From Oligella urethralis DSM 7531 (GTDB lineage Bacteria > Pseudomonadota > Gammaproteobacteria > Burkholderiales > Burkholderiaceae_B): a DNA stretch of 37,988 nucleotides. Positions 1,406-35,451 of this stretch are shown here, piece by piece (positions within the stretch are counted from its first letter, which is position 1; the number at the start of each line of letters is the position of its first letter). The translations under genes were made by a program, and so were the position numbers. Location of the stretch: NCBI RefSeq assembly GCF_000372065.1, contig NZ_AQVB01000019.1, forward strand, positions 1-37,988. The letters are read 5' to 3'. The notes under the pieces are model-generated. The model was not told the origin of the DNA and made no database searches. It saw nothing but the letters and a program-made list of their open reading frames with translations.

Positions 1406-1708
1406 CTATTCAGGCACATAGATCATACGACCGTCATTTAAGCGATAGGTAACACCGGCGCGCAAGCCCTCACCCTCACCGATATGTTGCGTGGACTCAT
1501 ACTGTTGAATTTCCTCACCCTCTTTGATGGTGATGCGCATATGCTCCTCGCCGGGATTTTCTATCACAATCACCCTATCCTGCTGAAAAGGGCTTAAAGG
1601 ATTTTGTGCCATCATGATCATCAACACACCGATAATCACCAAAAAAAGATCAATTAAATTGACCACCGAGAGCATCGGATCGTTATCCTCTTCCGTGATA
1701 AATCGCAT
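1406..1708 (-). CDS. DUF2149 protein, ExbD-like partner of a proton channel
   Basis: The protein has 100 residues. An acidic N-terminus (EEDNDPMLSVVNLIDL) leads into one membrane helix (about residues 17-34), followed by a small soluble domain that ends in a DGRMIYVPE strand. This matches DUF2149, a family found beside CobN-like chelatases and MotA/TolQ/ExbB channels. The layout of short cytoplasmic tail, one helix and periplasmic domain is that of ExbD/TolR, and the aspartate at the mouth of the helix (NLIDLF) is placed like the protonatable ExbD aspartate. It starts 3 bases after the channel gene's stop, with GGAG 9 bases upstream of the ATG. Its role, energy transfer to the chelatase or the outer-membrane receptor, is inferred from context. 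In Bacteroidetes hmu loci the equivalent gene is one of the hmuTUV set. Confidence 0.75.
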   Translation of the reverse strand: MRFITEEDNDPMLSVVNLIDLFLVIIGVLMIMMAQNPLSPFQQDRVIVIENPGEEHMRITIKEGEEIQQYESTQHIGEGEGLRAGVTYRLNDGRMIYVPE

Positions 1709-1711
1709 GCT

Positions 1712-2191
1712 TTAGGACTCCTGCTTTGCACTTTCGACACGACGCAAATCTTCTAATAACCAGCGACGCCTAAAGCTGAAAATAAAAAAGCTAAGGCTCG
1801 CAGCTAGCAGGGCCAAAATCACAGAAGAAAAGGCGACAACCATATTACGCCCAACCGCCGCCGTATCATGCTGACCTAAAGCCAGTAAGGCCGGCCCCAT
1901 GGGAATCATGGTTGCAATTAAGCCCAACATGGGCGCTGTGCGCGAAATAATACGCAACCAATCCAGCGCTTTGATAATTTTCAATTCCAAATCATCGCTC
2001 TGAGAGCTCGCGCCATCACGCACAACAAAGGAACGGAATTGACCGCGTCGACGCTGCCACGCCTCCATTAAAAAAGCCCCAAAAGCAAATAGTGAATACA
2101 GCAAAGCCACCACGATTAATATCATCACCGGCACTAAAAAGAGTCGGGAGAAAGCATATAAAAAGCCTTCAAACTGTTGCATAACTTCCAT
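1712..2191 (-). CDS. MotA/TolQ/ExbB-family proton channel subunit
   Basis: The protein has 159 residues and three predicted membrane helices: about 11-42, then a pair near 85-108 and 115-139 within SRTAPMLGLIATMIPMGPALLALG and the following segment. The stretch TAPMLGLIATMIPMGPALLAL matches the conserved ExbB/TolQ core in which proline and threonine residues line the proton path. It is shorter than ExbB or TolQ (about 230), as is usual for the versions that travel with CobN-like genes. It starts 21 bases after the chelatase stop and ends 3 bases before the DUF2149 gene, so the three are almost surely one operon. The two membrane proteins probably form a small PMF-driven motor. Whether it drives the chelatase or the upstream TonB-dependent receptor is open. 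Confidence 0.8.
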   Translation of the reverse strand: MEVMQQFEGFLYAFSRLFLVPVMILIVVALLYSLFAFGAFLMEAWQRRRGQFRSFVVRDGASSQSDDLELKIIKALDWLRIISRTAPMLGLIATMIPMGPALLALGQHDTAAVGRNMVVAFSSVILALLAASLSFFIFSFRRRWLLEDLRRVESAKQES

Positions 2192-2212
2192 TTAAACACT
2201 CATCATTTATGG

Positions 2213-5200
2213 CTAAGGACGTTGTTGACGATATTGCCAAAAACCACCCAAAGCGATCCATAACATTAAAAACAACACGTAATACGCCGGGCGAGGGTCG
2301 ATAGCTTGCACCCTCACCCTTTCCAATACTTGTCCCTGTACCTGCTCTAATGGCGGTGCCTGCGAAGCGTCAGCTACCTCGTTCTGAGGCGGCTGTGCAG
2401 ACTCAGTTGCCAGCTCAGCAGCGCTATCTGGACGAGCTCCAGTTAAACCATAACCCGCAGCCATCTCAGCTAAAAACGTCTGACTGACAGCGGCAATATC
2501 CGTGATCTCATAGCGCGCATTCAAATCCTGCCAACGCTCGGCCAAAGCCGCTTTGGTACTAGCCGAGGCCTCCCAGTAACCGTGACGAATAGCCTCTGCC
2601 ATCCGCTCTAACAGTTGCGCCTCGGCATTGGGGTTATGCGCTTCAAACCATTGATTTAAACCGAGCTCATAGCGATCCATCACATAAGTATCAAACATGG
2701 CTTGCCATTGATCGTCTCGCACCGTGTTCTGATTCATCACTTGCCAACCAAATAAATTATTGGTGATATTCAGCATCGCTAGGGTCCCAGCATAGCCCTC
2801 TCCTTGCATCGCTTGAATCCACTGCGGATTCAGATAGCGTGAACGCAATTCCTGCGCTAAAAAATGTTCTAACGAGCTCGTATGAGGTGTCTGCTGACGC
2901 AAATCAGACACCAATAACTGCGGCGCAGCCCCATTTATCAACTCAATCGCAGCCGATAAGCCACCCAAAAACTCAAAGCCATGATCGGTGGACAAAACGC
3001 CGTGGACATGAGAAGAACGGCTCATAATCGCTGCATCTACGCCTGCTAATTGAGCTGACAACACCGCCTTAGCATTTTCTGCACTAAGCTGACTTAAGCC
3101 AGTACCGTTGCGATAAGGATAGGATTGACTTTGCATAAATTGCTGCGCCAACACCTCGGCATCATCCCACTGACTAGACTGCAAGGCCAAATGTGGTACG
3201 CCCGTGCCATAATGACCGGCATCATTCGAGAAAATGCGTAATTTTGCCTGCGCCAGTGCCGCTTCTGCTGATAGCGACAGACCCGCTGTCTGCCTCAAAC
3301 GTGCCGCCACGGCTTGACTATTCGCAGCAATGGGATTCATCGCCGGATCCTCATCCAAGGTCGCCAACTCGGCAATTGCCTGATTTAATAGCGTCATAAA
3401 ATGATCAAACTGATCACGATAGACGCCGGTCACCTGCACCACCACATCAATCCGTGCTCGCCCCAGTTCACTGAGTGGGATAATATCCAAGCGCTCTACC
3501 CGCCCACTCGGTCCCCAGACGGGGCGCAGACCCAAGGCATGTAGTAACTGCGCCTCGGTGACACCTAAATGACGAATCGCCTCTGACGACCACAAACTGA
3601 AAGCCAATTTCTTAGGTAATGCGCCCTGATGCGCAGCTTGATACGCCGCTACCAACTGCTTAAAGGCAAGCTCACCCGCCTCATAACTCTGCTTGGTTGG
3701 GATTTTAGTCGCCTCAAACGCGTATAGATTACGCCCGCTAATCAGACCAGGTTGACGTATCGGATCACCCCCATTACCCGGCAAGACATAACCACCAGCC
3801 AAGGCCCGAATTAAGGCTGCATTTTCTTCATTCTGCTGTAGGGCTTGATTAAAGCTTAATGCATCATCATAAAAACCGCTTAAGGCACTCATTGCCTCAG
3901 GCACCTCGGCGCCATTTAGCCAAGCGGCAATTTTAAGATAGGCCGGATGTTGTTGTACTGTCTCCGTATCACGTACTAAGCGCTCCTCTGCAGCTAAACC
4001 CATGGCATCATAAAAGGGCTCTCCCAATTGCTGCATCAGGGTCACCATACGCTCATGCTCGCTCGCCGGCTCACCGAAAGTATGTAAACCTAAAGGCATG
4101 GCCGCTTCGGCTATCTCATGCAAATAATCATGTAACGCTGCGCTAAAAGCCAAGCTATCTTGCTCTGCCGTCTCACGCGTCCACCCTAAATCCTCTAGGT
4201 AGTGATGCCGAGCTGCCAAATCAATCAACTGCGCAAGAGTTTGCTGCTTGACCATGCCCTCATCTAATTGACTTAAGGCATGAATTAAATCGTGCATTGT
4301 GCGCAACTGATCGTATAAACCGGCCGGCGCAAAGGCAGGCGTTTGATGACTAATCATCACGGCCCGTCCGCGGCGTTTTGCTTGAATCGCTTCACCGACG
4401 TTATCTTGAATGTAGGGATAAAATACCGGCAAATCACCCAAGGCCAACCAAGGATAATCCTCCACCGCCAAGCCTCTGTCCTTACCCGGCAGCCATTCCT
4501 GTGTACCATGCGTACCCAGATGAATTAAAGCGTGGGCGGCATACTGTTGTTGCAAATAAAGATAAGCTGCCATATAAAGATGATCGGGAATCTGCTGCAC
4601 ATCATGATAATGTGCATTCGGATCACCGGCTCGCGGCATTTGTGGCATCAATACTAGATTTGCTAAGCGTAAACGCGGCAGAACAAAATAGCGCTTACCG
4701 TCAACCTCTCGCAGCGCCCAATGGGCTTGAAGATCATGGTGACGCATCATGGCAGTCTGCACCGCTGGTGCTTGGATTTGCAACCATTGCATATAACGTT
4801 CGAGTGGCAACAAGGCATAGTGACGATACTCAAGCCGCTCTGCTGTTGGCACTTCCGCGGCAAGTAAGGCGTCCAGCTGCTCAGGCCTATAAATCGCACT
4901 CAACAAGGCCTGCAACTCAGTAATCAAAGTCTCTTCACTTAGCGTCTCACCCACCTCATAGGCGGCCGCTTGTAAAGCCTGTTGAATCGACAACACACTC
5001 CGCGGCACATTAAGATTAGAAGCACCGAGATTCTTTTCACCGGGTGGGTAGTTCCAAAACAATAACGCCAAACGCTTTTGTGGATTCGGCGTTTTTCTTA
5101 AGGCAATTAACTTCCTCAGTTTAGCCATCAAGGCATCCAACTGTTTTGGCATGAGGACATCACGCCCCTGACTACGCCCAGCTAACACAATCGGATCGCT

Positions 5201-6181
5201 TAAACCCCAGGTCTCGGGTAGCGCCAAAAACGTTGCCGCCACCGAGGCCGAGACCCCGCTACTTGCTTTGGACCACTGACGGATATCTGCCTCTCTAAAG
5301 CGCAAACTCTGAATCACCGGAATATCTAAAGCATCAAACTCACTGACTAAATCATGGCTATTTTGCAAGTGTGTCAAATTGACGAGGGCATCTAGCTGCG
5401 CCTCCTTAAATAGCGCTTGTAAGGCACCCGCTGGGGCATCATTTGCCAGCCAAAATACGATTGGCTGAATCCCCTTCAACTCCGCCGCAAGCATGATCTC
5501 ATCAATTATGTCGGTGACTAAATCTGACACCACGCTAGCCGAAATTAAAAAAGCCACACGTCCTTTAGGTACGACCACTGGCGCTTGAAAATGATTGCCA
5601 GCCTCTTGTAAATAGGACTGATGCCACGCCAAATAGGCATTTAAATCGCTAAACACCGTTGCTGCGGCAAAGTGATAAAAGCCGCTTTCCGGCAAAGTCT
5701 GCACGGTCGGCAAGTCATTGACCTCTAAAGTAGCCAATGCTTGCTGCTGAATCAACTCAAAGAAATGCTGAAAATTCTGCGCCCCACCCTGTGTGTACAA
5801 GGCAATCAAGTGCTTTGCCAAGGTCGCATCCATATGCTGCCAATGCGCTGGCCCAGCGCCCATCACTAATTGCTTTTTGTCCTGTACCTCAAAGGCCGTC
5901 AAAAAACGCGCTACACTCGCCCTATCACTGGGCCGAGGCACATCCAAAATTATCCAATCGGCATCCGCAATTAACTCCGCAGCACGGGCTGCAGGCGTAT
6001 TGATATTGAGCGATTGCAATACCACCTCATGCGCATCAGCAAAGCGCTGCAACACCTCGATTTTCTGCGTCGCCACAAAATCATTATGCACCACTAACAG
6101 CCGTGGTTGACTGTGCGCTGTTGGCATCGCCCCCATTAAGCAGACAATGAAACACAAGGCTTGTATAACTCGACACCACAT
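2213..6181 (-). CDS. CobN-like metallochelatase, exported and membrane-anchored
   Basis: The protein has 1322 residues and belongs to the CobN/BchH/ChlH large-subunit chelatase family, which insert or remove metals in tetrapyrroles. Family landmarks are HLGTHGTQEWLPGK near residue 553, followed by the PVFYPYIQDNVGEAIQAKRRG block, and, near 1054, SRSSHVHGVLSTDHGFEFLGG with the following LNITNNLFGWQVMN. Unlike cytoplasmic CobN it begins with a clear signal peptide (MWCRVIQALCFIVCLMGAMP, cleavage likely after AHS) and ends with one membrane helix (about 1297-1315) and a short basic tail, so the body should sit in the periplasm. No CobS/CobT or ChlI/ChlD ATPase partner lies nearby; a MotA/ExbB-like channel and DUF2149 gene follow instead. 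This architecture matches HmuS of Bacteroidetes hmu loci, reported to remove iron from heme. Metal and tetrapyrrole here are not determined. The ATG is 5 bases after the receptor's stop, so translation is probably coupled. Confidence 0.85.
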   Translation of the reverse strand: MWCRVIQALCFIVCLMGAMPTAHSQPRLLVVHNDFVATQKIEVLQRFADAHEVVLQSLNINTPAARAAELIADADWIILDVPRPSDRASVARFLTAFEVQDKKQLVMGAGPAHWQHMDATLAKHLIALYTQGGAQNFQHFFELIQQQALATLEVNDLPTVQTLPESGFYHFAAATVFSDLNAYLAWHQSYLQEAGNHFQAPVVVPKGRVAFLISASVVSDLVTDIIDEIMLAAELKGIQPIVFWLANDAPAGALQALFKEAQLDALVNLTHLQNSHDLVSEFDALDIPVIQSLRFREADIRQWSKASSGVSASVAATFLALPETWGLSDPIVLAGRSQGRDVLMPKQLDALMAKLRKLIALRKTPNPQKRLALLFWNYPPGEKNLGASNLNVPRSVLSIQQALQAAAYEVGETLSEETLITELQALLSAIYRPEQLDALLAAEVPTAERLEYRHYALLPLERYMQWLQIQAPAVQTAMMRHHDLQAHWALREVDGKRYFVLPRLRLANLVLMPQMPRAGDPNAHYHDVQQIPDHLYMAAYLYLQQQYAAHALIHLGTHGTQEWLPGKDRGLAVEDYPWLALGDLPVFYPYIQDNVGEAIQAKRRGRAVMISHQTPAFAPAGLYDQLRTMHDLIHALSQLDEGMVKQQTLAQLIDLAARHHYLEDLGWTRETAEQDSLAFSAALHDYLHEIAEAAMPLGLHTFGEPASEHERMVTLMQQLGEPFYDAMGLAAEERLVRDTETVQQHPAYLKIAAWLNGAEVPEAMSALSGFYDDALSFNQALQQNEENAALIRALAGGYVLPGNGGDPIRQPGLISGRNLYAFEATKIPTKQSYEAGELAFKQLVAAYQAAHQGALPKKLAFSLWSSEAIRHLGVTEAQLLHALGLRPVWGPSGRVERLDIIPLSELGRARIDVVVQVTGVYRDQFDHFMTLLNQAIAELATLDEDPAMNPIAANSQAVAARLRQTAGLSLSAEAALAQAKLRIFSNDAGHYGTGVPHLALQSSQWDDAEVLAQQFMQSQSYPYRNGTGLSQLSAENAKAVLSAQLAGVDAAIMSRSSHVHGVLSTDHGFEFLGGLSAAIELINGAAPQLLVSDLRQQTPHTSSLEHFLAQELRSRYLNPQWIQAMQGEGYAGTLAMLNITNNLFGWQVMNQNTVRDDQWQAMFDTYVMDRYELGLNQWFEAHNPNAEAQLLERMAEAIRHGYWEASASTKAALAERWQDLNARYEITDIAAVSQTFLAEMAAGYGLTGARPDSAAELATESAQPPQNEVADASQAPPLEQVQGQVLERVRVQAIDPRPAYYVLFLMLWIALGGFWQYRQQRP

Positions 6182-6186
6182 ACCGC

Positions 6187-8184
6187 TTAATACGCCAAAT
6201 TAAAACCTGCGTAAAAACGTCTACCCTCATCCGCCGCCTGATAAAGCTCGGGCTGCTCATTGGCTAAACGTTTATTGCTGATATTTTCTACCCCACCATA
6301 GAGTCTGAGCGATTTATTCAGCTCATAACTTATATCCCAGTGGATTAAGGCATAGCTTGGACGTTTAATTGATTGATTAGCGACGACGCCACTACCTAAC
6401 TGCGATCCCACATACTCATAACGCAACGTCGTCTCAAGCTGCGCCAATGGGCTCCAAGTTAAAGCCACATTCGCGCGATGACGCGAACGATCCAATAAGG
6501 GCTCATTTTTTAGGCGATCACGCGCACTTAAATAAGTGTAATTCGCACTGAGTGCCCAGTCCGTACTAATATCCCATTGCGCACTTAATTCCACCCCTTG
6601 TAGCCGTGTTTGATTAATATTTTGGTAATTTAGACAAACAAAGCCACGCTCATTGCACTTGGGTAAACGTACGGTGGTGATAAGATTTTTCACATGATTT
6701 TGAAATAAGGTCGCTGCCACCGACCAATCATCTGCACGATACGCAGCCCCTAATTCGTAGGAGGTATTTGTTTCTGCGGCCAAGTCCGGATTACCCCGAA
6801 CAATACCACGCCCTCCCATGGCCGCTCGGGACTCATAAGATGGTGACAATTGTTTTAAGGTTGGTGCTTTAAAACCCTTACCCACACCGGCTCTGAACGT
6901 CCAGTTATCAGTAGGTTTAAATAACAAATAACTGCGTGGGCTAAACTGCCAACCAAAGCGCTGATGCTTATCAAAACGCCCACCTATCACAGCCTCCCAC
7001 TGCTCGCCTAAACTAATTTCATCCTGTAAATAAACCGCAAAATGACTTTGCTTATCCTTTTGCTCTGCATTAATATTCGGATCTTCCACCTGTTCACGGC
7101 GCCATTCCACACCTAAGCTCAGACGCTGATAGGCTCCCACATCAATTTGCGTTTGCGCATCCCAAACCGTGTCCACAAAGCGGTTTGGTGCACTAATTTC
7201 CTTGGTATCGCTCCGCTCCACATCACGCTTTAAACGGCTTTGGTACCAGCGCAACTGCAACGATCCCCAAGCCCAATCACCACGGTAAGCCAAGCTATAG
7301 CGATGACGACGAATCAAGCTATCAATCTCATAGGGCGTGTTAGCCTTAGTCCGTCCAGCAGATGCTAAGCGCACCCCCGCTAATTCCTCTCGATTGATAT
7401 CAACCCCTAAATCAATGCGTTGATTCGTATCTGGCGTCCACGTCAATCCCACATGCAAGCTTTTTGCTTGTTGTTCATCGAGCGTACTAAGACGCCGATC
7501 CTGCGCATTTAATAAAGCTTGACGACGACGCAACTCACCCCATAGATTGATCCCCAGTGTATTTTCAATCAACGGTCCACCCGCATAAAAACCGCTTTTA
7601 TATAAATCCCCCTTTAAGCGCTTGGAGCCCAAGCGAAAAAGCTGATTAAAAGAGGCCTGCCATTGTTCAGTGGCTGCCCGCGTCACCACATTCACCACAC
7701 CGCCCAAAGACTCGGAACCATAAAGCGAGGACATCGGACCACGCACAATTTCAATACGCTCAATCGCTTCGGCAGGGACCCATGTTTGTTCCAAATTCGA
7801 GTGTGCAATGCTGCCTGCCGTATGATTGATCCGCTGCCCATCAATTAATATCAAGCTATGCTCTGAATCCATGCCACGAATGGATATACCGCGTCCGCCC
7901 CCAGCACCCACATACTCAGAAGCTATACCGACTTGATCGTGAATCATATCGAACAAATCATTATGCGGACGACGTCGCACCACAACACCATCGACCACGG
8001 ACACACTGGCCATGGCTCGCTCCAGCTCACGCGTGGACGCTGTGGTGGAAACCACCACATTAGGTAATTGCTGAATTTCCTCCAACGCTTGGGCCTGCAA
8101 CGCAGTGACTGGCACCAATGAATACATGGCAAAGACGATGCCTTTTATCGCTAAAGGCAGATAACACGGTTTAAATGGAATCAT
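6187..8184 (-). CDS. TonB-dependent outer-membrane receptor of the chelatase operon
   Basis: The protein has 665 residues: a signal peptide (cleaved near 33, VTALQAQA), a plug domain with GRGISIRGMDSEHSLILIDG near residue 93 and VRGPMSSLYGSESLGGVVNV near 147, and a 22-strand barrel ending in the aromatic terminus FNLAY. The barrel carries a FKAP motif and a GNPDLAAET motif, equivalents of FRAP and NPNL in heme receptors. The intervening loop, however, contains no histidine, which argues against a classical heme receptor. The overall style is closer to FepA/CirA/BtuB, and a Cys pair (PKCNERGFVC) probably closes a surface loop. It is the first gene of the operon with the CobN-like chelatase and the ExbB/DUF2149 pair, so the cargo is probably the chelatase substrate (heme, another metallo-tetrapyrrole, or cobalamin-like). 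The promoter region carries a nested inverted repeat (8212-8254). Confidence 0.85.
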   Translation of the reverse strand: MIPFKPCYLPLAIKGIVFAMYSLVPVTALQAQALEEIQQLPNVVVSTTASTRELERAMASVSVVDGVVVRRRPHNDLFDMIHDQVGIASEYVGAGGGRGISIRGMDSEHSLILIDGQRINHTAGSIAHSNLEQTWVPAEAIERIEIVRGPMSSLYGSESLGGVVNVVTRAATEQWQASFNQLFRLGSKRLKGDLYKSGFYAGGPLIENTLGINLWGELRRRQALLNAQDRRLSTLDEQQAKSLHVGLTWTPDTNQRIDLGVDINREELAGVRLASAGRTKANTPYEIDSLIRRHRYSLAYRGDWAWGSLQLRWYQSRLKRDVERSDTKEISAPNRFVDTVWDAQTQIDVGAYQRLSLGVEWRREQVEDPNINAEQKDKQSHFAVYLQDEISLGEQWEAVIGGRFDKHQRFGWQFSPRSYLLFKPTDNWTFRAGVGKGFKAPTLKQLSPSYESRAAMGGRGIVRGNPDLAAETNTSYELGAAYRADDWSVAATLFQNHVKNLITTVRLPKCNERGFVCLNYQNINQTRLQGVELSAQWDISTDWALSANYTYLSARDRLKNEPLLDRSRHRANVALTWSPLAQLETTLRYEYVGSQLGSGVVANQSIKRPSYALIHWDISYELNKSLRLYGGVENISNKRLANEQPELYQAADEGRRFYAGFNLAY

Positions 8185-18142: not shown

Positions 18143-19147
18143 CTAAGACAATTCAATCCACTGTCGATCCCGATCTAAAATCCATACCGAGACCTTTGAA
18201 ATCTGCTTTAAGGTGTTCTTAATCGACTCTATTGGCATTATCGAAAAGGCCGTTGCCAAAGCATCTGCTTGAGTTGCGGTTGGAGCAATTACTGTAACAC
18301 TTAAATAGCGCTCATCGGATTGTGAAGTTGCGGGATCAAAGATATGATTAATACTTTTTTCATAGCTTAGATAAGTGCCTCTAGAAGATGAGGTTGCCAT
18401 TGCTTGATTACCGAGTTCAAGCGTTTTTAAAATCAGACTAGCATCAAGCGGATCAGCTATCCCCAAGGACCAAGGTGCTTTGCCCAACGGTAATAAACCA
18501 CGAATTTCACCCATATTGATTAGGGCATGGTCTACTCCTCGTTGTTGCATTAGATCCGTGACTCTATCGGTAATAAAACCCTGAGCAATGCCATTGAGAG
18601 TAATACGCTGTCCCGGTTTTGCTAAGCGAATACGATTAGGCGTTAATTGAATACCGTCCCAACCTAGTAAGTGCCGCACTTCTGTTATTCTTGCCTTTAA
18701 CTCCTCCGGACTGGCCTGAGGATTCTCAATAAGATAATCTCTATAAGTTTCCCAAAGTATCTGAACAGTTGGGTCGAACACTCCGTGAGTTAATCTGACA
18801 TGCTCATCAGCTAAAGACATTAGCCAATAAAAATCATGAGAAAATCCGGAGACTTCACCCTCATTATTTAAGTGGCTAATAACACTATCATCTCGGTATA
18901 AACTAAACAAACGCTCTTGACGCTGAACCTCTTTTAATATGGCCTGAAGCAGGTGACGGGCCTCGTGCTTATCCTCGTGGTAGATTTTTAACTGTGCATC
19001 AGCGCCTAGCGCAATCCCACGCCACTCTAACAATTCCACCTCATTGGAATTAGCAAGTGACACCAGTGGCCATTGTGATAGCGCTACTGTGCTACAAAAC
19101 AAAGCAAGAATTTGTCGTCGCTTGGTCTTAAAAGGTTGCTTCATCAT
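18143..19147 (-). CDS. nosX: ApbE-family FMN transferase (NosX-type) of the nos cluster
   Basis: ApbE/NosX proteins attach FMN covalently to a threonine in exported flavoproteins; in nos clusters the target is NosR. The 334-residue protein starts with a twin-arginine-like signal (KTKRRQILAL, cleaved near SLANS). It shows the family blocks: ERLFSLYRDDSVISHLN near 93, GVFDPTVQILW near 140, LNGIAQGFITDRV near 190, GEIRGLLPLGK near 220, and SVTVIAPTATQADALATAFSI with the magnesium-binding threonine/aspartate region near 290. It is the last gene of nosRZDFYLX, 10 bases after nosL. The NosX assignment rests mainly on position. NosR here has the FMN-binding domain that would be its substrate. Confidence 0.85.
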   Translation of the reverse strand: MMKQPFKTKRRQILALFCSTVALSQWPLVSLANSNEVELLEWRGIALGADAQLKIYHEDKHEARHLLQAILKEVQRQERLFSLYRDDSVISHLNNEGEVSGFSHDFYWLMSLADEHVRLTHGVFDPTVQILWETYRDYLIENPQASPEELKARITEVRHLLGWDGIQLTPNRIRLAKPGQRITLNGIAQGFITDRVTDLMQQRGVDHALINMGEIRGLLPLGKAPWSLGIADPLDASLILKTLELGNQAMATSSSRGTYLSYEKSINHIFDPATSQSDERYLSVTVIAPTATQADALATAFSIMPIESIKNTLKQISKVSVWILDRDRQWIELS

Positions 19148-19157
19148 TTTTCACCAA

Positions 19158-19763
19158 TTAGTGATTATGGTGCGCATCATGGGCAGAATGCTCTGCTTTA
19201 GAACCATGATTATCATGAGCACCTTGTGTGCCATGTCCTGCATGCGATTGTGGAGGTTGCTGGAACACAAAAGACTTTGGCATTTCATCAAAGGTCACCA
19301 CACGTCCACCATGAGTGCTGGAATATTCTTCGGCCTTTGCGCGCTCTTTAAACGGTAAAGCATCTGAGCTACCCATCCCCCCGACAAAAGAACTTTCAAT
19401 CACATAAAAAGCGGTTTTTGCGTCTAGCCATTTTTTGTTTACGCTGTGGTCAGTCCAATCTTCTACATCTGTAGCGTCATTAACGTACATAGCGCTAATA
19501 TTTTTAGCCTCTTCTGGCAATAGACGGAAAGCAAAGAGCTGGTTTACCTCGGTAAACCAAATCGGATCCTCCTGATCTGTCAAGAATAAATGTGCTTTAG
19601 GACCATCGTGCTCAGACAAAAACATATGACAAAAATGCCCTGTTGAGTCATCACTGATTTGTGCAGCAAGAGGTACTTCTACAGACTCTGAACTTGGTTT
19701 ACAAGCAGTCAGGCTAAAACATAATAATAAAGAAGCTCCAATCACTTTAAATGTCATTTTCAT
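19158..19763 (-). CDS. nosL: NosL copper chaperone lipoprotein
   Basis: NosL delivers Cu(I) in the periplasm for assembly of the CuZ site of nitrous oxide reductase. The 201-residue protein has a lipoprotein signal with lipobox LTAC (Cys21). The core shows the NosL pattern: TGHFCHMFLSEHDGPKAHLF near residue 43, a FVGGMGSSDALPF block near 120, and a VVTFDEMP end. A histidine-rich tail (last 25 residues, many His and Gly) probably binds extra metal. I start at the ATG at 19763, with GGAG 8 bases upstream; the TTG at 19766 is too close to it. It lies 18 bases downstream of nosY. Confidence 0.93.
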   Translation of the reverse strand: MKMTFKVIGASLLLCFSLTACKPSSESVEVPLAAQISDDSTGHFCHMFLSEHDGPKAHLFLTDQEDPIWFTEVNQLFAFRLLPEEAKNISAMYVNDATDVEDWTDHSVNKKWLDAKTAFYVIESSFVGGMGSSDALPFKERAKAEEYSSTHGGRVVTFDEMPKSFVFQQPPQSHAGHGTQGAHDNHGSKAEHSAHDAHHNH

Positions 19764-19781
19764 CAAAATTTCTCCGATATG

Positions 19782-20609
19782 TTATAACTGCTTACGATTA
19801 AATACTGCTACAGCAAGAATAAAGGGCACCATTACCCATAAGCTTAAGGCGACATACAAAACACTGACTCGCAAATTCATTTGATCACTCAACCCCGCCA
19901 TTCCTGCAAAAACAGAAATATTTTCAGAGTCCACTAAATTCAGTAAACGGTAAATATCAGCTGGATTAAAGAGTAATATATAGTTCAGCGTATCAGCGGT
20001 AATCGTTTGCTGCGTATCGGCCACCAAAATACCGATCAGTGCGATATCAAAAATCACCACCATAAAGAGCCATACAAAAAGTGCTAAACCAGCAGCAGTG
20101 GCTCGCTCTTTAACCAGCGTACTCAGCAAATAGCCAAGACTTAAAAAACTCGCCCCCAAAAAAATACTTAAAGTAATCATTTTGGAGAAATCTATCCACG
20201 CCTCAGTGCTAGAACCGTAAATAAAATGCAATACGAGTCCGGCAATCCCATAACCCACGACGGTAGCAATCGCTAAAATAGCCACATGCCCAATAAACTT
20301 TCCAGCTAACACGTGCCAACGCGCAACTGGATAACTTAGCAACAAAGACATCGTGCCACGCTCAACCTCACCAACAATGGCGTCATAACTAAGCAATAAG
20401 GCAATCAGTGGAATTAAAAATATCGATAGACTGGACAAACTCACCAACGTCACGGTTAAAGGATCAACCTTGACCGTACCAGTCGGAGCTGTACCCAATA
20501 AACCAAGCACCAAAGCAAACACCACTAACAATAAAGTGGTTGCCAATACCCAGCGATTTCTTAAACCGTCACGGATTTCTTTTAGACTGATAGACAGGAT
20601 TTGCCTCAT
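19782..20609 (-). CDS. nosY: NosY ABC transporter permease
   Basis: The 275-residue membrane protein has six predicted helices and the ABC-2-type permease start (ILSISLKEIRDGLRNRW). Other typical stretches are DAIVGEVERGTMSLLLSYPV and GKFIGHVAILA. With NosF and NosD it forms the NosDFY transporter that provides sulfur and energy for CuZ maturation on periplasmic NosZ. The ATG overlaps the nosF stop as ATGA, so the two subunits are coupled in translation. Confidence 0.93.
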   Translation of the reverse strand: MRQILSISLKEIRDGLRNRWVLATTLLLVVFALVLGLLGTAPTGTVKVDPLTVTLVSLSSLSIFLIPLIALLLSYDAIVGEVERGTMSLLLSYPVARWHVLAGKFIGHVAILAIATVVGYGIAGLVLHFIYGSSTEAWIDFSKMITLSIFLGASFLSLGYLLSTLVKERATAAGLALFVWLFMVVIFDIALIGILVADTQQTITADTLNYILLFNPADIYRLLNLVDSENISVFAGMAGLSDQMNLRVSVLYVALSLWVMVPFILAVAVFNRKQL

Positions 20610-21508
20610 ACATCCTCTCTTCTTAAATAATGAGCATAGATTTCATCTAAACTCGGCGCATATGTATTCACATCCAAAACGTGGGGATTTTGTACTAGCG
20701 TACTGAGCAATGACATTTTTTCATTTTGTTCACAATTGAATCGATAAATATTAGCATCAATTCTCTGCCACTCGTGCCCCGTATCCGGTGGATTGTCTGT
20801 GACGGTTTTTATCTGAATACGATAGCTCAATCCACTGTCACTGCGTAAACTATCTAAACTACCATCAGCGACCTTAAGCCCTTGATTCATCACCACTACT
20901 CTATCAACATTACCTTCAAGCTCAGTCAAAGCGTGAGTGCATAATAAAATCGTTGCACCACGTTCACGAAGCTCACGAATGATGTCGTAAAATTGTTGTC
21001 GTGATGCCGGATCTAAACCTGTAGTCGGTTCATCAAATAATAAAATTTTAGGATCACCTAAAAGCGCCTGAGCCAAAGCCAAACGCTGTTTCATACCTTT
21101 AGAGTAAGTATTAACTCGTTGTTTAGCGGCATTAGCGATCCCGACTTTTGCCAATAACTCAGGATAAGACCTATCCTTGATTTGTTTTAGTTCAGCATAA
21201 AAATCTAGTGTTTCCCTGCCAGTCAAATTCGGGTACAAAGACACGACTTCGGGTAAGTAACCTATATCAAAGCGTAGCTTGACTGATTGACGAGCGGAAG
21301 CTTGGCGTCCGAGTAAGCGCACCTCCCCCTTGCTCGGACTAATTAGTCCCAGGATCAACTTCATTACCGTACTTTTACCAGCGCCGTTATGTCCAGCCAA
21401 AGCAACGCACTCACCTTCGTGTAAAACCATATCCAGAGAATGAATAACTGTCCGTTTACCGTAAGTCATTTCGACCTGTTCAAGACAAACCAACTCATTT
21501 GCGCTCAT
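20606..21508 (-). CDS. nosF: NosF ABC transporter ATPase
   Basis: The 300-residue nucleotide-binding subunit of NosDFY has Walker A GHNGAGKST near residue 39, signature YSKGMKQRLALAQ near 128, Walker B ILLFDEPTTGLD near 150, and the switch histidine in LLCTHALTE. I start at the ATG at 21508 because GGAG lies 7 bases upstream; the frame reaches 21532 but without such a site. The start overlaps the nosD end by 14 bases. A C-terminal domain of about 80 residues follows the ATPase core, as is normal for NosF. Confidence 0.94.
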   Translation of the reverse strand: MSANELVCLEQVEMTYGKRTVIHSLDMVLHEGECVALAGHNGAGKSTVMKLILGLISPSKGEVRLLGRQASARQSVKLRFDIGYLPEVVSLYPNLTGRETLDFYAELKQIKDRSYPELLAKVGIANAAKQRVNTYSKGMKQRLALAQALLGDPKILLFDEPTTGLDPASRQQFYDIIRELRERGATILLCTHALTELEGNVDRVVVMNQGLKVADGSLDSLRSDSGLSYRIQIKTVTDNPPDTGHEWQRIDANIYRFNCEQNEKMSLLSTLVQNPHVLDVNTYAPSLDEIYAHYLRREDV

Positions 21509-22802
21509 CCAACAACTCCTGTAGTTTTTCATAAGTCTGGGTTTGCGGCATCCGCATAATCGGTGAGCTATCCATCAGACCACCTGGTAATAAAGCAGGA
21601 AACTGTGATTGCGCCCAACGCACGACAGCGACAGCCGGACTATTTAATAAAATGCGGCTGCTGGGTGCCCGCCAAATGACTTGATCAATAATGTCATTAG
21701 GTCGATAGGCTGTATCCGAAATCCCATCGCCATCCAAATCAAAACCACTATGATCGCTCCAGTAGTTACCCCTGCCCTCATAAGCCCAGTCCTCATAACG
21801 AGTACCTACATACTTGACCTGAGTCTGGTTGTAAACAAAGGCATTATTAAAAATGACATTACCTTGAGCAGCGCCCGTATAATGAACACCAATCTCACAT
21901 TGTTCAAAATAATTATCTGTGATTTTATTGATATTGGCGTTATAGAAATAAACGCATTTCTCGGCTTTATGAACTGCATTAGCTATTACCGTAGAGTGAT
22001 TGGCGTAGTTCATCATCACACCCTGATCTCTACTATTAATTGATATATTGCGCAATACTTGGATGCGATCTGAAAACATAATCGCATAACCAATATCATT
22101 ATCTAAAGATATATTGTCCGACACCTCACTGTCATTGGTGTACATATAATGCACCCCATAACGTAAATTTCTAAAGGTATTACCGGAAAAGACATTTTCC
22201 CTACTCGTGTTAGAGAAAATGCCATCACGACCATTGAGAATGTCATTTTTTAAAACTTGACTGCCAGGAGAGTTCCAGACCGTCACCCCATTACCACGTT
22301 CTGACATACGTAATTTATTATTGCCGACGATATAATTTTCCCGGACCACCACATTATGCGGCCCCCAAAGATAAACGCCGACCAAATTGTCCAACACGCG
22401 ATTTTTTTCAATTAAAGCTCGGTGCGCTGTTTTATCCAGGAAAATGCCGGCATCCATCTGCGATAAACTCTGACCAGAATTCATGACCGTTAAAGAACGT
22501 ACCGTCACGTCTTCACTTTTAATCCAGAGAGTACGTCCTTCACGAGCTCCCTTAAGCACCGCGCTATGATCATCGGGGCCAATGAGTTTGAGATTGTTAA
22601 CATCAACAACAAACTGCCCTTCATATTGACCTGACTCAAGCTGAATCGTATCACCTGACTGTGCAGCGTTCAGGACGGCTTGTAAATCATCACCTTCCTG
22701 AACAACATGCACATCACTGTGGGCTGCTGAGTGCAGCATCAACGCACCAAACAACCCACTAGATGCTAGACTTATAAGACGTTGCCATCTAAATAAAGTC
22801 AT
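21495..22802 (-). CDS. nosD: NosD periplasmic maturation protein
   Basis: The 435-residue periplasmic protein has a signal peptide (cleaved near HSAAHS) and a right-handed parallel beta-helix made of about ten short repeats rich in N, G and V, such as NSPGSQVLKNDILNGRDGIF and ENVFSGNTFRNLRYGVHYMY. NosD docks on the NosFY transporter and works with NosL on copper-sulfide centre assembly in NosZ. It starts 10 bases after the nosZ stop. The ATG at 22802 is preferred over a GTG two codons upstream. Confidence 0.94.
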   Translation of the reverse strand: MTLFRWQRLISLASSGLFGALMLHSAAHSDVHVVQEGDDLQAVLNAAQSGDTIQLESGQYEGQFVVDVNNLKLIGPDDHSAVLKGAREGRTLWIKSEDVTVRSLTVMNSGQSLSQMDAGIFLDKTAHRALIEKNRVLDNLVGVYLWGPHNVVVRENYIVGNNKLRMSERGNGVTVWNSPGSQVLKNDILNGRDGIFSNTSRENVFSGNTFRNLRYGVHYMYTNDSEVSDNISLDNDIGYAIMFSDRIQVLRNISINSRDQGVMMNYANHSTVIANAVHKAEKCVYFYNANINKITDNYFEQCEIGVHYTGAAQGNVIFNNAFVYNQTQVKYVGTRYEDWAYEGRGNYWSDHSGFDLDGDGISDTAYRPNDIIDQVIWRAPSSRILLNSPAVAVVRWAQSQFPALLPGGLMDSSPIMRMPQTQTYEKLQELLDERK

Positions 22803-22812
22803 AGACACTCAA

Positions 22813-24750
22813 TTACACCTTTTTAGGGTGAACCAACATCTGACCAGACATCTCCATATGTAATGCATGGCAGAACCACTGGCAGTAGTACCACTGTACG
22901 CCAGGACGTGAGGCTTTAAAAGTTACTGAAGCAGTTTGACCCGGAGAAACCTCCATCGCAATACCATGACCTTCTAACGTAAAGCCGTGAGTCAAGTCTT
23001 CAATTACTTCCACGTTACTGACATACACAGTGACTTCATCACCTTGATTTACTTCAAACTGGCTTAAACCAAACTGAGGTGCAGTCGCCGTCATATAAAC
23101 ACGCACTTTATCACCATCTCTAATGACTGTGTTAGCTGTATCTAAATCAACACCATCGGCCTTGGCTTGTTGTCTTGCAGTTTCCCATTGCGGGTCATCG
23201 CGATCCCAGATATTTTTCGGATTAACGACGGAACGATGTACTAAAAGCATATCGTGCGGTTCAGCAAAACTTGGTACGTCAGCGACTAATTTCATCTCAT
23301 CACCCGAAATATCAATTAACTGATCGTTTTCAGGCTTTAATGGACCAACGTTAAGAAATCGGTCTTTAGAGAATTTATTCAGAGAAACTAACCACTTACC
23401 ATCAGCATCTTTCGTCTCACCCATGGTTGAGTGATTATGACCTGGCTGGTAGTGAACATCAAGTTTCTGAATAATTGGGTCAACATCTTCACCCTCGTAC
23501 TGACGTCTCGCTAAATCGATATTCCATTTCACTAATTGGCTATCAATAAAGAGTGTAGTGTAAGCATTACCACGACCATCGAAGGCAGTGTGTAGAGGAC
23601 CTAAACCTAACTGAGGCTCAGCCACCACACAATCACGCGGTTCGATCTTGTCATCAAACAAATCATCCAATCTGCGCACGTCAATTAAAGTGACAGTTGG
23701 GGAGACCTTACCATTAAGAGCAATGTGAATACCATCAGGAGCAGCGTTACAACCGTGCGGAGAGTTAGGGATCGGAATATAACGAGTGTATGGCGAACCA
23801 TGACGTCCATCAACCATCTTCACGCCGTTTAGTTCCTCATAATCACCTTTTTCAATCGCTTCTTCAATACGCTTAATATTAAAGACCACTACCCAGTCTT
23901 GCTCATTAGCAGAAGAACCTGCTAAATTAAGTGCTTGCTCAGAGTTATAACAAGTAGCAAAGGAGTATTTACCTTGGTAATCCGCATCACCGTTATCAAG
24001 GTTACCGTCAACCTTGACCTGCCATGCAATTTCCATGGTTTCACCGTCAACCGCAGTATAGACAGCAAAGAAATTCTCTTTTGGATTATCCATCACAGTA
24101 CCATCATTAGGCAGCGGGATAATATGTTCACCATTACAAAATACGTAACCAGTCTTAGGATAACGCTGTGGACGTAAACCGTGAACTGCTGCAACGTTAG
24201 GTAACTCAACAATCTTGTCGGTTTTCATTACATCACAGCGAATACGAGCAATACGGTTATTGGCCTTATCATTAATGTAAACATAACGACCGTCATAGGT
24301 TTGATCAGTGAAGGACATATGCGGGTGATGCGCGTCACCGTTAGGCAAGCAACGTAAGTTCTGATCTTCCAAGAACTGGCGAGTTTGTGGCGTAATATTC
24401 CCATTAAGTATCTCTAGGCTCTCATTGGTACGCCCCCAACCGGTAGCACTACACATATTAAAAACTGGGATACGCATAAGCTCACGCATAGAAGGTAAGC
24501 CTAGAATACGGATTTCACCAGACTGACCACCTGAGTTAAAGGCGTAGTACTCGTCCAATTCACCAGGACCTACATGATTATCCAAACCACCTTCAGCACC
24601 TTTAGCTTGAGCATGGGCGTTCTTAGCGCCAAAGACTTTAGGCAATCCGACGCCACCCGCAAAACCGGCAGCACCGGTAGCTGCTGCCGCACCTAAAAAG
24701 CGACGGCGCTTCATTTCAAGAATTGGCTTCTTGTCTGCATTATCTTTCAT
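22813..24750 (-). CDS. nosZ: Nitrous oxide reductase NosZ (clade I, Tat-exported)
   Basis: NosZ reduces N2O to N2 in the periplasm. The 645-residue precursor carries a twin-arginine signal ([14 protein letters not shown]), which marks clade I (typical) enzymes. The seven-bladed propeller supplies the CuZ histidines in [51 protein letters not shown] and AEPHDMLL. The C-terminal cupredoxin domain supplies CuA: Cys623, Trp625, Cys627, His631 and Met634 in [15 protein letters not shown] start at the ATG at 24750, preceded by GAGG 6 bases upstream; an ATG four codons earlier overlaps that site. All copper ligands I can recognise are present, so the enzyme should be active. Confidence 0.98.
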
Positions 24751-24814
24751 AGTAAACCTCATGGATTATTGTGCTTTTTCAAGCACGATGACTCAGAATA
24801 AATAGAACACCAAA

Positions 24815-27226
24815 CTATCTACCCTCTTTCTGCTTCTTGGGCTTTGCTTCAAAAGCAGTGGCATTAGGCATAAAGCGTAATACCTCTTCTGTAAACACCG
24901 GCTCCGGACTCGCTTTCGCACCAGGTGATGGACGACGACGTTTAGCCGAACGTTGAATTAATTCAGGACATTTTTTCTCATGTAAATACAACATCTGACA
25001 ATGTAAGCACTGGATACACTCATTAGGTTCAATAGGACCTTCCGGTGTAATCGCATCAACCGGACACTCCACCGCACAACGCTGACATGGGTCACCACAC
25101 ATTTTGTAACGGCGTAACCAGTCAAAAATTCGTAACCTAGCAGGAATCGCTAAGCCGGCACCAAGGGCACATAAATAGCGGCAATAAAAGCGTTCAATAA
25201 ATAGACCTGCAACAAGTAATAACACTGCAAAAGTAACAAACGGCCAACTGCGCAAGAACTTCAAGATAATTGCCGTCTTAAATGGTTCAACTTCAGCCAA
25301 TTTCTCGGCAAATGCCAGGCCATATAAAGAGAAGCCGAATAAAGCAATAAAAATGACGTATTTAATTGCAGCCGCCCGATGATGAATAGCATAAGGCACC
25401 TTGATCTGTTTAATGCCCAGCTTTTTAGCTACTTTATTCAATAGTTCCTGTAAGGAGCCAAAGGGACATAACCAGCCGCAGAATGCACCACGATTCCAGA
25501 AGATCATAGAGATCGCTGTGGCACACCAGAGAATAAAGACAACGGGATCCATCAGGAAGTATTCCCAATTAAACTCTGTCCGCAGTGAGGTGGTAAAGGT
25601 TAAGACGTTGACTACTGATAATTGTGCATTGGCGTACCAGCCGATATAAAACAGACTAAATAGTAAGAAAGCAGTGCGGAAGTAATTGTATAGCTTCTCG
25701 TGACGCGCCAAGGCATGCTGGAAGAAGAATACAAAGCCAAGCAATATCAGTGCAATAACAACCACGATAATCTGTGGCAATTTAGTTTTCCAAATAATCT
25801 GCCATAACGGTACGTCGTCCGCAAACATTTGCGCATGATCAGTGACTTGGTGATCAACAGGTCCAGCCGTTTCGGCTTGAGAAGGCGTCGCTACAGCTGC
25901 AGCGATGTCTGTCACCACCGGTGCAGAAGGATCATCCATGGTATAAATTTCTGGCAAATGATAATTTAGCTCGACTGGAATGAAAATTTTCTCATGCACG
26001 GTGATTTCACGCTGAACTAACAACTGCAGACGCCAAGGTTCAACCGGATTAAAGAAATCATAATCCTCAGATACAAAAAATAAACCAACTTCTTTAAAGC
26101 GAGGCGACCCCTCAGCCATCACATCATAAAGTCGCTTATGTTCCAAGTCGGTAAAACGGAAACTATGTTCGCCCTGAATAATATCGAAACGGTCAAAAAT
26201 GCCACCGCGCACATAACCTGAGCCTTTAAAAGAATAAATGCCATTACCGGCAATCAGGATCGCTTGCTGTCCTTCCTTTAGGCGAGACTGCATATAGTCA
26301 AACTCAGCCTCTCCTAAAAGACTACGACCAATGGATGGCACAGACACCACCGCCGCATACAAATCAATAAACTCAGCGTCAGGGTCCCCACCTATTTCTT
26401 TACGCCCAGCCCCGGGACGACCAGAGTCTATGAAGCGTTGATTAATCTCACCAACGTTGATGTTTAGATTAGCAACAGCGCCCTCTTCTAATAAAACATC
26501 CCAAGACTTTATCTCCAACAGGTCTTGATTAATTACTTTAGGTGTCGCCTTAGTGTCAGTCTCAGCTCTTGCTACGGTATCGGCAACGGGAGAGACCGCA
26601 TCTGGTGACATACCAATTTGATACGCTTGCCCCATAATTCTGGATGAACGCAAAATACTGTCACCAATAACCATCAATGTCACCGTAGCACCACTAATCA
26701 TATCGACTGGTGGCGGCGCGCCGACCGGTAATGGGTTTTTAATTAAGTTCATACCAATGTAGCCGTTAATGAAATCGACCATCTTGGTTTCAGGAATACC
26801 AATTAAAACAATTGGTTCGTGGTGTTCAACTAATTTAGCACCGACAATCTTACCCTCATTATCCAATGCCACTAAGGTATCAATAGGCTTACTAGAATAA
26901 CCACGCGTGTTCACAATATCCGTGGTCAGAAATACATAGCCCACAGCCTCCTGGCCTTTAAATACCTGAGCATAGGGCGGATTACCCTGAACGGCACCAT
27001 AACCATCAGCGTCAGGAAACACCTCAGAAGCTTGAACCGTAGCGAGAAACTCACCCAAGCGCGAGTTAGCCACAGCAGCTGAGCTAAAGAACATACAGCA
27101 AACAATGAGCATAAAGCTCAGCAGAAATGGTAGAAAGGATTTAGAAAAGGGGCATGCTAAGCACTCTAACTGAGTTGACCCAGAACTATCTGAAGGATTT
27201 ACTGGTATATTTTGTCGATATAGCAA
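24815..27226 (-). CDS. nosR: NosR flavo-iron-sulfur membrane protein
   Basis: NosR feeds electrons to NosZ and is needed for nos expression. The 803-residue protein has a membrane-directing N-terminus, a periplasmic FMN-binding domain (VGYVFLTTDIV near 80, then GATVTLMVIGDSILRSSR with the flavinylation-type threonine near 187), several membrane helices, and two transmembrane cysteine motifs (CGWLCPFGSLQELL and CRYLCALGAG). The end holds two [4Fe-4S] ferredoxin motifs (CGDPCQRCAVECPVDAI and CIQCLHCQMLYLHEKKCP). I start at the TTG at 27226 because AAGGAG lies 6 bases upstream; no ATG has comparable support. The N-terminus before the hydrophobic segment is then about 30 residues longer than usual. 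It is first in nosRZDFYLX, with a perfect FNR-type box about 155 bases upstream. Confidence 0.95.
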   Translation of the reverse strand: MLYRQNIPVNPSDSSGSTQLECLACPFSKSFLPFLLSFMLIVCCMFFSSAAVANSRLGEFLATVQASEVFPDADGYGAVQGNPPYAQVFKGQEAVGYVFLTTDIVNTRGYSSKPIDTLVALDNEGKIVGAKLVEHHEPIVLIGIPETKMVDFINGYIGMNLIKNPLPVGAPPPVDMISGATVTLMVIGDSILRSSRIMGQAYQIGMSPDAVSPVADTVARAETDTKATPKVINQDLLEIKSWDVLLEEGAVANLNINVGEINQRFIDSGRPGAGRKEIGGDPDAEFIDLYAAVVSVPSIGRSLLGEAEFDYMQSRLKEGQQAILIAGNGIYSFKGSGYVRGGIFDRFDIIQGEHSFRFTDLEHKRLYDVMAEGSPRFKEVGLFFVSEDYDFFNPVEPWRLQLLVQREITVHEKIFIPVELNYHLPEIYTMDDPSAPVVTDIAAAVATPSQAETAGPVDHQVTDHAQMFADDVPLWQIIWKTKLPQIIVVVIALILLGFVFFFQHALARHEKLYNYFRTAFLLFSLFYIGWYANAQLSVVNVLTFTTSLRTEFNWEYFLMDPVVFILWCATAISMIFWNRGAFCGWLCPFGSLQELLNKVAKKLGIKQIKVPYAIHHRAAAIKYVIFIALFGFSLYGLAFAEKLAEVEPFKTAIILKFLRSWPFVTFAVLLLVAGLFIERFYCRYLCALGAGLAIPARLRIFDWLRRYKMCGDPCQRCAVECPVDAITPEGPIEPNECIQCLHCQMLYLHEKKCPELIQRSAKRRRPSPGAKASPEPVFTEEVLRFMPNATAFEAKPKKQKEGR

Positions 27227-27303
27227 GATATTCTCCTTAGCTTTTCCTCTACCTACAGCCAAGAAAAGCTCTCTTAAGCTTTAATTTTTAACTTGAAAAA
27301 TAT

Positions 27304-27474: not shown

Positions 27475-27478
27475 CATG

Positions 27479-27653
27479 CTCTGTCGCAGGAGAGAGGTTT
27501 TCTACACCCGCCGAAGGCGCAAACTCCCATAAACGCTCAGGCTCATGTACTGCACATCGCAATTATCCGCCAACTGGAGAGTGGTTAGATGACTAACCCA
27601 CCGAAGGAGCAAGTAGCCTTAGCTATCAAAACTCTCAGGTACCAAGAACAGAG
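27479..27653 (+). ncRNA. Tandem glycine riboswitch
   Basis: Two glycine aptamers lie in a row. The first shows GGAGAG (27489-27494), CCGCCGAAGGCGCAA (27508-27522) and CTCAGGC (27536-27542). The second shows CTGGAGAG (27574-27581), CCACCGAAGGAGCAA (27598-27612) and ACTCTCAGGT (27631-27640). CTCTGT at 27479-27484 can pair with ACAGAG at 27648-27653 to close the whole unit, as expected when the leader forms the kink-turn with the linker. Only about 32 bases separate it from the start of the TRIC-type gene, and no terminator stem is apparent, so control is probably at translation initiation. Confidence 0.93.
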
Positions 27654-27685
27654 GGAGTGGCATCACAATCTAGTAGGTCTTGCCG

Positions 27686-28460: not shown

Positions 28461-28489
28461 TTGCCTTTCTTAATAGCAATCATTATAAT
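28461..28489 (+). promoter_or_regulatory. Fur-controlled promoter of the siderophore receptor
   Basis: TTGCCT (28461-28466) and TATAAT (28484-28489) are 17 bases apart. Overlapping the -10 is AATAGCAATCATTAT (28472-28486), which matches 12 of 15 bases of the Fur-box core AATGATAATCATTAT. This is where Fur would block RNA polymerase in iron-replete cells. Confidence 0.7.
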
Positions 28490-28568
28490 TTGCATTAGTG
28501 TTCTTGACATAAATCAAGGGCTCCACTTTTTAACACTCAATTTTCCTCAGAGGGAAAGGGAAAAATTA

Positions 28569-30791: not shown

Positions 30792-30811
30792 TCCTTTTTA
30801 GCATTTAAGCT

Positions 30812-30850
30812 ACCACCCACTTTATTTATACTAGAGTGGGTGGTTTTTTT
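30812..30850 (+). terminator. Terminator between receptor and piuC-like gene
   Basis: ACCACCCACT (30812-30821) pairs with AGTGGGTGGT (30835-30844) and is followed by a run of T to 30850. It sits 13 bases before the piuC-like ATG, so downstream expression would depend on read-through. Confidence 0.88.
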
Positions 30851-30863
30851 ATGGGTTATACCA

Positions 30864-33257: not shown

Positions 33258-33283
33258 GATTAATATTAAGCATGAGGTTTTTG

Positions 33284-35377: not shown

Positions 35378-35393
35378 GCTCTATTTAATATAC

Positions 35394-35429: not shown

Positions 35430-35451
35430 CTCTTTATTTATTAATAACTTT

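Follow-up and report, generated by a model that had tools for sequence, protein, structure and literature searches.

What does an exported protein of the CobN family do, and for which metal, when its gene is packed between a TonB-dependent receptor gene and genes for a short ExbB-like channel protein and a DUF2149 protein? The question is raised by a 37,988-nucleotide stretch of Oligella urethralis DSM 7531 (contig NZ_AQVB01000019.1; hereafter the window), in which these four genes form a minus-strand operon (Table 1) with intergenic gaps of 5, 21 and 3 bp, flanked by trmD and a luciferase-like monooxygenase gene. The tight packing had been described in an earlier note made from the letters alone, and all four genes were confirmed at their place by Pfam: CobN-Mg_chel (PF02514) with 931 bits, MotA_ExbB with 34.4 bits (cut-off 22.9), DUF2149 with 96.2 bits (cut-off 27.1), and TonB barrel and plug with 215.7 and 75 bits for the receptor. 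A search of the own genome gave this single CobN-family gene and no second copy. The reading that we favour, with confidence only marginally better than even, is a zinc-starvation operon, in which an envelope de-chelatase would free zinc from an imported chelate, probably a tetrapyrrole, with the help of a proton-driven motor; zinc as the metal, the tetrapyrrole ligand, removal rather than insertion, and the coupling to a motor are all things that we infer.

Table 1 Operon genes, aligned metal-site residues and predicted operator sites (positions in the window)
Feature	Position	Strand	Basis or remark
TonB-dependent receptor, 665 aa	6187-8184	minus	nearest to CirA-type receptors
CobN/HmuS-family chelatase-like protein, predicted exported and membrane-anchored, 1322 aa	2213-6181	minus	Pfam; PDB sequence match HmuS 9d26; predicted fold
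Short MotA/TolQ/ExbB-family proton-channel protein, 159 aa	1712-2191	minus	Pfam MotA_ExbB
DUF2149 protein, 100 aa, ExbD/TolR-like by motif	1406-1708	minus	Pfam; low-confidence model
His271 codon	5369-5371	minus	aligned with HmuS His-254 (head/neck axial ligand)
His558 codon in HLGTHG	4508-4510	minus	aligned with catalytic HmuS His-538
His1067...Glu1070 (LSTDHGFEFLGG)	2972-2983	minus	aligned with HmuS His-1209/Glu-1212
Zur-like operator, 17.2 bits	8211-8233	minus	26 bp upstream of receptor start
Further, weaker Zur-like site with two registers that overlap, 10.0 and 9.5 bits	8233-8260	minus	matrix

The promoter suggests which metal may be concerned. A 23-bp Zur matrix was built from the best site per zur locus in 26 relatives of 29 scanned, the own genome being excluded. 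When 102,849 bases of the own genome were scanned, the sites at znu/zur came top (20.2 and 18.2 bits) and the operator upstream of the operon's receptor third (17.2 bits). In the own genome, a gene of the Fur family, taken to be zur, is transcribed away from znuCBA (names by eye); two Zur boxes lie in the interval, and CobW-, dksA- and hslVU-like genes adjoin the zur gene. No good Fur site was found at the operon promoter, where the best Fur match was 12/19; upstream of the window's heme-type receptor it was 14/19. Judged by these predicted sites, the operon is very probably under zinc control through Zur. On another contig of the own genome, a 15.4-bit Zur-like site (L045:9019) was seen upstream of a zinc-type alcohol dehydrogenase-like gene (named by eye).

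One scan of a genome collection yielded 80 named alpha-, beta- and gammaproteobacterial loci, the best 80 of at least 546 candidates, to which the locus counts refer. Co-occurrence of the four genes across proteobacteria, which the earlier note had proposed to look for, was found: the complete set, by our own criteria, was present in 72 of the 80 loci, seven had no window-related receptor adjoining cobN (in L188, one without such a receptor, a different receptor-like open reading frame (ORF) was recognised), and one ended at a contig edge. With those seven excluded (n = 73), a Zur site of at least 9 bits was present near the receptor start in 53 of the 73 relatives; elsewhere in the same loci 21 of 3327 windows had one, and column-permuted matrices gave a mean of 0.5 of 73. 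Over whole loci, a site of at least 12 bits was found in 63 of 80, against 4 of 80 for reversed sequences; it was found in none of the nine loci of clade F, three of which had Fur-like boxes by eye, and in none of the 12 loci of clade B, which has a long CobN. Zur-like (Fur-family) or ZnuA-like genes lay within about 8 kb in 11 of the 80 loci, or in 19 when CobW-like genes were included. A Zur-family gene directly follows DUF2149 in L029, and in L030 the operon lies between dksA-like and hslVU-like genes, which adjoin zur in the window genome (names by eye). In the Stutzerimonas loci L190, L193 and L220, Zur sites scoring 17-24 bits lay some 400 bp upstream of the receptor ORF; the site of L193 could alternatively serve a divergent CobW-like gene. 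The paired sites of the window promoter resemble the double Zur box of another locus, L033.

The protein under this promoter is, as judged by alignment, not an ordinary cobaltochelatase; it has the residues of the HmuS metal site, and the canonical CobN motif (KHG ... D..Q) is absent from it. Its best PDB sequence match was HmuS 9d26 (1.4e-111), and a model of residues 25-1215 (predicted local distance difference test, pLDDT, 82) had the class I chelatase fold. For export and anchoring, simple hydropathy cut-offs were applied (C-terminal cut-off 1.8): a signal-like N-terminus and a C-terminal hydrophobic segment were present in 79 and 73 of 83 rows of the window clade, compared with 9 and 0 of 23 canonical CobN/BchH rows, and the window protein's own C-terminal segment scored 1.75, just under the cut-off. 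These clade-wide predictions support the envelope location that had been suggested for the chelatase. The absence of AAA+ partners, likewise noted before, stands within the window and falls for the genome, since an unlinked CobS-like/CobT-like pair is encoded on another contig (L282:3786-6483, with a sulfoacetaldehyde acetyltransferase-like gene nearby, by eye); being cytoplasmic by family, this pair should miss an exported protein. The window protein scored 1469 bits against the NCBIfam equivalog NF004644 (cut-off 1248), a name that is not diagnostic because L035, a relative with Fur boxes, passes the model too (1368 bits).

For the active site, 133 proteins were aligned, 84 of them from the window clade, with one identical pair (L030 and L178) included and L140, L141, L150 and L157 excluded, which had no CobN-like stretch of 900 aa; alignment A5 used 27 of the 80 CobN rows. 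Statements on cited papers here and below refer to excerpts of them. In HmuS, His-538 lies opposite His-1209 across the cleft, Glu-1212 holds His-1209, the H538A exchange abolished turnover, and Met-79 and His-254 are ligands of a second heme at the head/neck (PMC12583661). Equivalents of all these residues except Met-79 were found in the window protein. His558, which is common to the whole superfamily, was present in 84 of 84 clade rows, within a motif that differs from HFG(T/A)HG of HmuS by Phe to Leu. His1067 and Glu1070 were kept in 83 of 84 rows; compared with LSLDHxxEFMGG of HmuS, the window motif LSTDHGFEFLGG keeps the His and the Glu and differs at two other positions. This pair is absent from canonical CobN (mostly D..Q) and from BchH and the long-CobN clade (which end in D), and clade F has D..Q in seven of nine rows and H..E in two. 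The His271 equivalent occurred in 81 of 84 clade rows and 3 of 3 HmuS-like rows, and in 0 of 43 rows of clade F (absent in all nine), long CobN, CobN and BchH. In trees calculated with the motif columns removed, the window clade was well supported and separate from the HmuS group. All 63 Zur-site loci keep the four-residue signature intact, and the four loci with a broken signature had no Zur site (Fisher p 0.0015; at most two lineages). That the chelatase-like protein is a de-chelatase acting on a zinc chelate is what we hold to be somewhat the better supported view; for a tetrapyrrole as the ligand the chances appear even.

The two small proteins may form a proton-driven motor for the chelatase, and the balance leans modestly in favour of this. 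In an alignment of ExbB-like proteins (A4, 41 of 70 clean rows), P87, G90, T94 and P100 were counted as invariant in 42 of 42 rows; for DUF2149 (A3, all 42 clean-length rows from the 80 loci), D20, within the transmembrane helix and aligned with a TolR-like Asp, was present in 43 of 43. An Asp of this kind is needed in ExbD and MotB. The direct match of DUF2149 to a TolR/ExbD-like protein over this helix was weak (hhalign probability 23%, E 9e-4), and the low-confidence DUF2149 model (pLDDT 67), with one transmembrane helix and a small beta-rich domain, had zero PDB matches at E 0.001. The likeness to the ExbB/ExbD, TolQ/TolR and MotA/MotB motors thus lies in the MotA_ExbB domain and a single helix with an invariant Asp, while the very short ExbB, the beta-rich second part of DUF2149 in that model, and the chelatase partner set this system apart. 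Among 369 genomes drawn across the class, DUF2149 was found in 21 and PF02514 in 41; DUF2149 was present in 20 of the 41 genomes with PF02514 and in 1 of 328 without, so that the gene set is more than chance, and the lone match without CobN was under the Pfam cut-off and inside a TolR/ExbD-like gene. CobN-like and ExbB-like genes were in the same fetched stretch for 19 of the 20 DUF2149 matches outside the own genome. DUF2149 tracks CobN and not the receptor type, the nearby receptors being varied or not found, and it is from this independence that we infer a coupling of the motor to the chelatase.

The receptor had its best PDB match in the colicin I receptor (7.9e-88). It scored 332 bits against the CirA model, 345-369 against two 'ligand-gated channel' models, 208 against TonB-hemin and 196 against TonB-B12, all under cut-off, and for BtuB and TonB-B12 far under. 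A histidine is missing between its FKAP and NPDL motifs, as the earlier note had it, and the doubt raised there about plain heme as substrate is supported. A separate candidate heme set lies at 33240-37696 of the window (plus strand) and comprises a Fur-like site, a heme-type receptor just under the cut-off of TIGR01785 (315.1, cut-off 316.85), an ABC-type protein and a HutZ-like gene (76.6, NCBIfam cut-off 225). At 28461-31544 (plus strand), a Fiu-like siderophore receptor is followed by a PKHD-type Fe2+ dioxygenase.

Several known systems can be set beside these genes. With the hmu operon of Bacteroidota, the window has in common the class I chelatase fold, the predicted envelope anchor, and ExbB and DUF2149 neighbours (PMC12583661), which adjoin in Bacteroides and Prevotella hmu loci too; the kinship to the Bacteroidetes hmu set that had been proposed is borne out by these neighbours and by the residues in common. 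Unlike hmu, the window has no HmuY or HmuT-position gene among the four genes, no Met-79 and no visible methionine-rich insert, and it has a CirA-type receptor and Zur in place of the heme/iron context. CobN cobaltochelatase and ChlH/BchH have PF02514 and the overall fold in common with the window protein, which differs from them by predicted export, another active-site motif, ExbB and DUF2149 partners and no linked CobST or ChlID. The gene order matches PA1922-PA1925 of Pseudomonas aeruginosa (receptor, CobN-like, ExbB/ExbD-type, small protein), which was 45-147 fold up in a znuA mutant and has a Zur site; in that study PA1924 was annotated as ExbD and proposed as a component of the TonB pathway, and PA1925 as hypothetical (PMC4542158). 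The P. delhiensis locus (L235) and the Stutzerimonas loci fall inside the clade of the window. PA1922-PA1925 has been called cobalt-related or a free-zinc importer (PMC8531726, PMC13083405, PMC11761036, PMC8456098), and PA1923 is listed as cobN2 (PMC7857532). According to a review, Zur control of PA1922-25 is unique to P. aeruginosa, judged from 150 bp upstream (PMC10393844); lying about 400 bp upstream, the Stutzerimonas sites are outside that span. The excerpt on the Caulobacter Zur regulon contains no cobN (PMC4176598), and the excerpts of PMC7857532, PMC12279742, PMC11870441 and PMC4176598 hold nothing bearing on mechanism. No link to HmuS was found in the excerpts on PA1922-25, zinc is not mentioned in that of the HmuS paper (PMC12583661), and among the papers listed by literature searches no title or abstract opening was found that joins HmuS to Zur.

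Taken together, the proposed mechanism would run as follows. At low zinc, Zur would leave the promoter, and the receptor would carry into the periplasm an organic ligand loaded with zinc, for which a metallo-tetrapyrrole is the likeliest candidate. There the CobN-like protein, anchored by its C-terminal helix, would bind the ligand first at the head/neck cleft, via His271, and next in the central cleft, where His558 and His1067/Glu1070 would protonate the ring and release zinc, in parallel to the proposal for iron in HmuS. ExbB and DUF2149, the latter in the stead of ExbD, would use the proton gradient for loading or release and so take over the job that the CobS/CobT or ChlI/ChlD ATPases have in cytoplasmic chelatases. 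The freed zinc would pass to ZnuABC, which is encoded in the own genome. Zinc porphyrins usually carry one axial ligand, and His271 without Met-79 would fit a five-coordinate zinc porphyrin as against six-coordinate heme.

Four other explanations were weighed against zinc release from a tetrapyrrole. Closest to the earlier note is a heme-iron harvest of the HmuS type, to which HmuS as best PDB sequence match, the common H/H/E site with the His-254 equivalent, and the ExbB and DUF2149 neighbours in Bacteroides and Prevotella hmu loci would lead; with a Zur rather than a Fur site, no Met-79, a CirA-type receptor, and, elsewhere in the window, a heme-type receptor linked to Fur and a HutZ-like gene, it is improbable. 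An iron or heme role is spoken against for this copy by the Zur sites, the lack of a good Fur site at the promoter and the Zur-repressed gene order of PA1922-PA1925, and plain heme harvest was rejected as the leading explanation on the Zur sites in the window and the clade. Uptake of zinc without any tetrapyrrole, as free zinc or with a non-porphyrin zincophore and with the CobN-like protein as zinc relay or releaser, deserves more weight, being unlikely rather than remote: Zur control and a CirA-type receptor would suit it, a 2022 review suspects PA1922-25 of importing non-chelated zinc, and L033 sits under Zur boxes without the catalytic His, yet the entire chelatase fold and active site are retained in the window protein, and porphyrin-type receptors occur at the Zur-linked loci L033 (under cut-off) and L036 (above).

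Least probable is a handling of cobalt or corrinoids, by a cobaltochelatase or by cobalt import during zinc shortage. The CobN family name, the published Zur-linked cobalt ideas for PA1922-25 and the receptor of the long-CobN locus L148, nearest to the B12 family, point that way, against which stand the missing KHG/D..Q motif, predicted export, the low BtuB and TonB-B12 scores of the receptor, and a search of the window for a cobalamin riboswitch, which gave none at Rfam gathering thresholds. Cobalamin biosynthesis was rejected on motifs, export and receptor type. The fourth explanation concerns the motor: ExbB and DUF2149 could energise the receptor, replacing the TonB complex or beside it, and leave the chelatase motorless. 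HmuU/HmuV are described as powering import with HmuR (PMC12583661), and the TonB-pathway proposal for PA1924 agrees with this; set against it are the 19 of 20 class-wide DUF2149 matches that accompany CobN with receptors varied or not found nearby, and an operon without a TonB gene. We regard it as rather unlikely, although the likeliest of the four.

Several observations weigh against zinc release from a tetrapyrrole. The receptor is CirA-like, and neither heme- nor BtuB-like; HmuS Met-79 is absent, the clade having Pro in 80 of 84 rows followed by Arg in 81; and the methionine-rich domain IV insert was not seen, the region measuring 51 residues in the window and 49-83 in the clade with at most 3 Met, compared with the HmuS-like rows, where it is 84, 189 and 281 residues long and contains 6, 30 and 8 Met. 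HmuS and CobN are not told apart by fold scores. On the tree, the HmuS-like residues changed three times for His271 and four times for the H/E pair, so that convergence is possible; two of nine clade F rows have the H/E pair without Zur sites, from which it follows that the pair may be convergent and is not tied to zinc. On the side of regulation, the Zur matrix was trained on one order only, 17 of 80 loci lack a Zur site of at least 12 bits, with best scores of -0.1 bits in L032 and L171, and the core Zur pattern with one mismatch had 15 matches genome-wide against 33 in the reversed control, so that only the matrix, and not the short core pattern, separates the signal. The own genome does encode the unlinked CobS-like/CobT-like pair, PA1922-PA1925 was likened by gene order and published annotation only, L033 keeps its double Zur boxes with a CobN-like protein that has no catalytic His, and L036 stands alone as a locus, since a search of 399 genomes of the order gave 0 matches to it at 1e-100.

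At L036, in another family member, the CobN-like protein falls into one group with HmuS of Bacteroides and Prevotella (support 100), with Arg at the Met-79 position and His-254 kept. Its Zur sites score 23.8 and 20.3 bits, and the locus holds ZnuA, DUF1007, ExbB-like and DUF2149 genes, an ORF without Pfam match in the HmuT position, and a divergent receptor above cut-off for heme/hemoglobin families; an enzyme of the HmuS clade, together with a receptor of porphyrin type, can therefore sit under Zur sites. At L033, ZnuA is a neighbour, and the receptor comes closest to the hemin family, under cut-off. The CobN-like protein of L033 (7324-11226, minus strand), lacking both active-site motifs and having ExbB, DUF2149, ZnuA, DUF1007 and NicO neighbours, is possibly a binding-only form. 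The long CobN clade (L146-L156 and L041; about 1430-1495 aa if complete) has ExbB and DUF2149 and mostly GRHS/NND motifs, and is possibly concerned with cobalt or corrinoids; the only receptor tested from it, that of L148, was nearest to the B12 family with 512 bits (cut-off 600). On a plasmid of Azospirillum brasilense, L269 (7923-12654, plus strand) has the HmuS-like signature; its stretch contains no Zur site, and nikR lies some 7 kb off. More tentatively, the chelatase-ExbB-DUF2149 core might be a general kit for taking metals from tetrapyrroles with varying receptors and regulators, whose members would be HmuS for heme iron, the clade with Fur-like boxes, the long-CobN clade with a B12-type receptor and, for zinc under Zur, the clade of the window.

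Among 61 genomes (the own one and 60 relatives), a CobN-like match was found in 12, the own genome included, and in none of seven congeners. In five of these seven, trmD and the monooxygenase gene are directly adjacent, which implies a gain of the whole operon here, or its loss from the others, as one block. Beside the monooxygenase gene, at 7-282 of the window (plus strand), lies a TnpB/Cas12f-like C-terminal piece, similar to one in the congener L284. Elsewhere in the window, a nitrous oxide reductase cluster was seen at 18143-27262 (minus strand; nosZ by Pfam, nosR/D/F/Y/L-like and ApbE-like genes by eye), and tandem glycine riboswitch aptamers at 27476-27661 (plus strand) upstream of a gene of the Gly_transporter family (PF03458), at 27680-28309.

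For the family, the name 'cobaltochelatase CobN' probably misdescribes a clade that is both large and widespread. For the Zur-controlled operon left unexplained in P. aeruginosa, zinc release from a tetrapyrrole offers a testable mechanism with named catalytic residues, by which the HmuS chemistry of gut anaerobes would apply to zinc as well as to iron, and in many proteobacteria. If it is true, zinc-loaded tetrapyrroles would be a source of zinc, and a proton-driven motor would replace the ATPases of class I chelatases.

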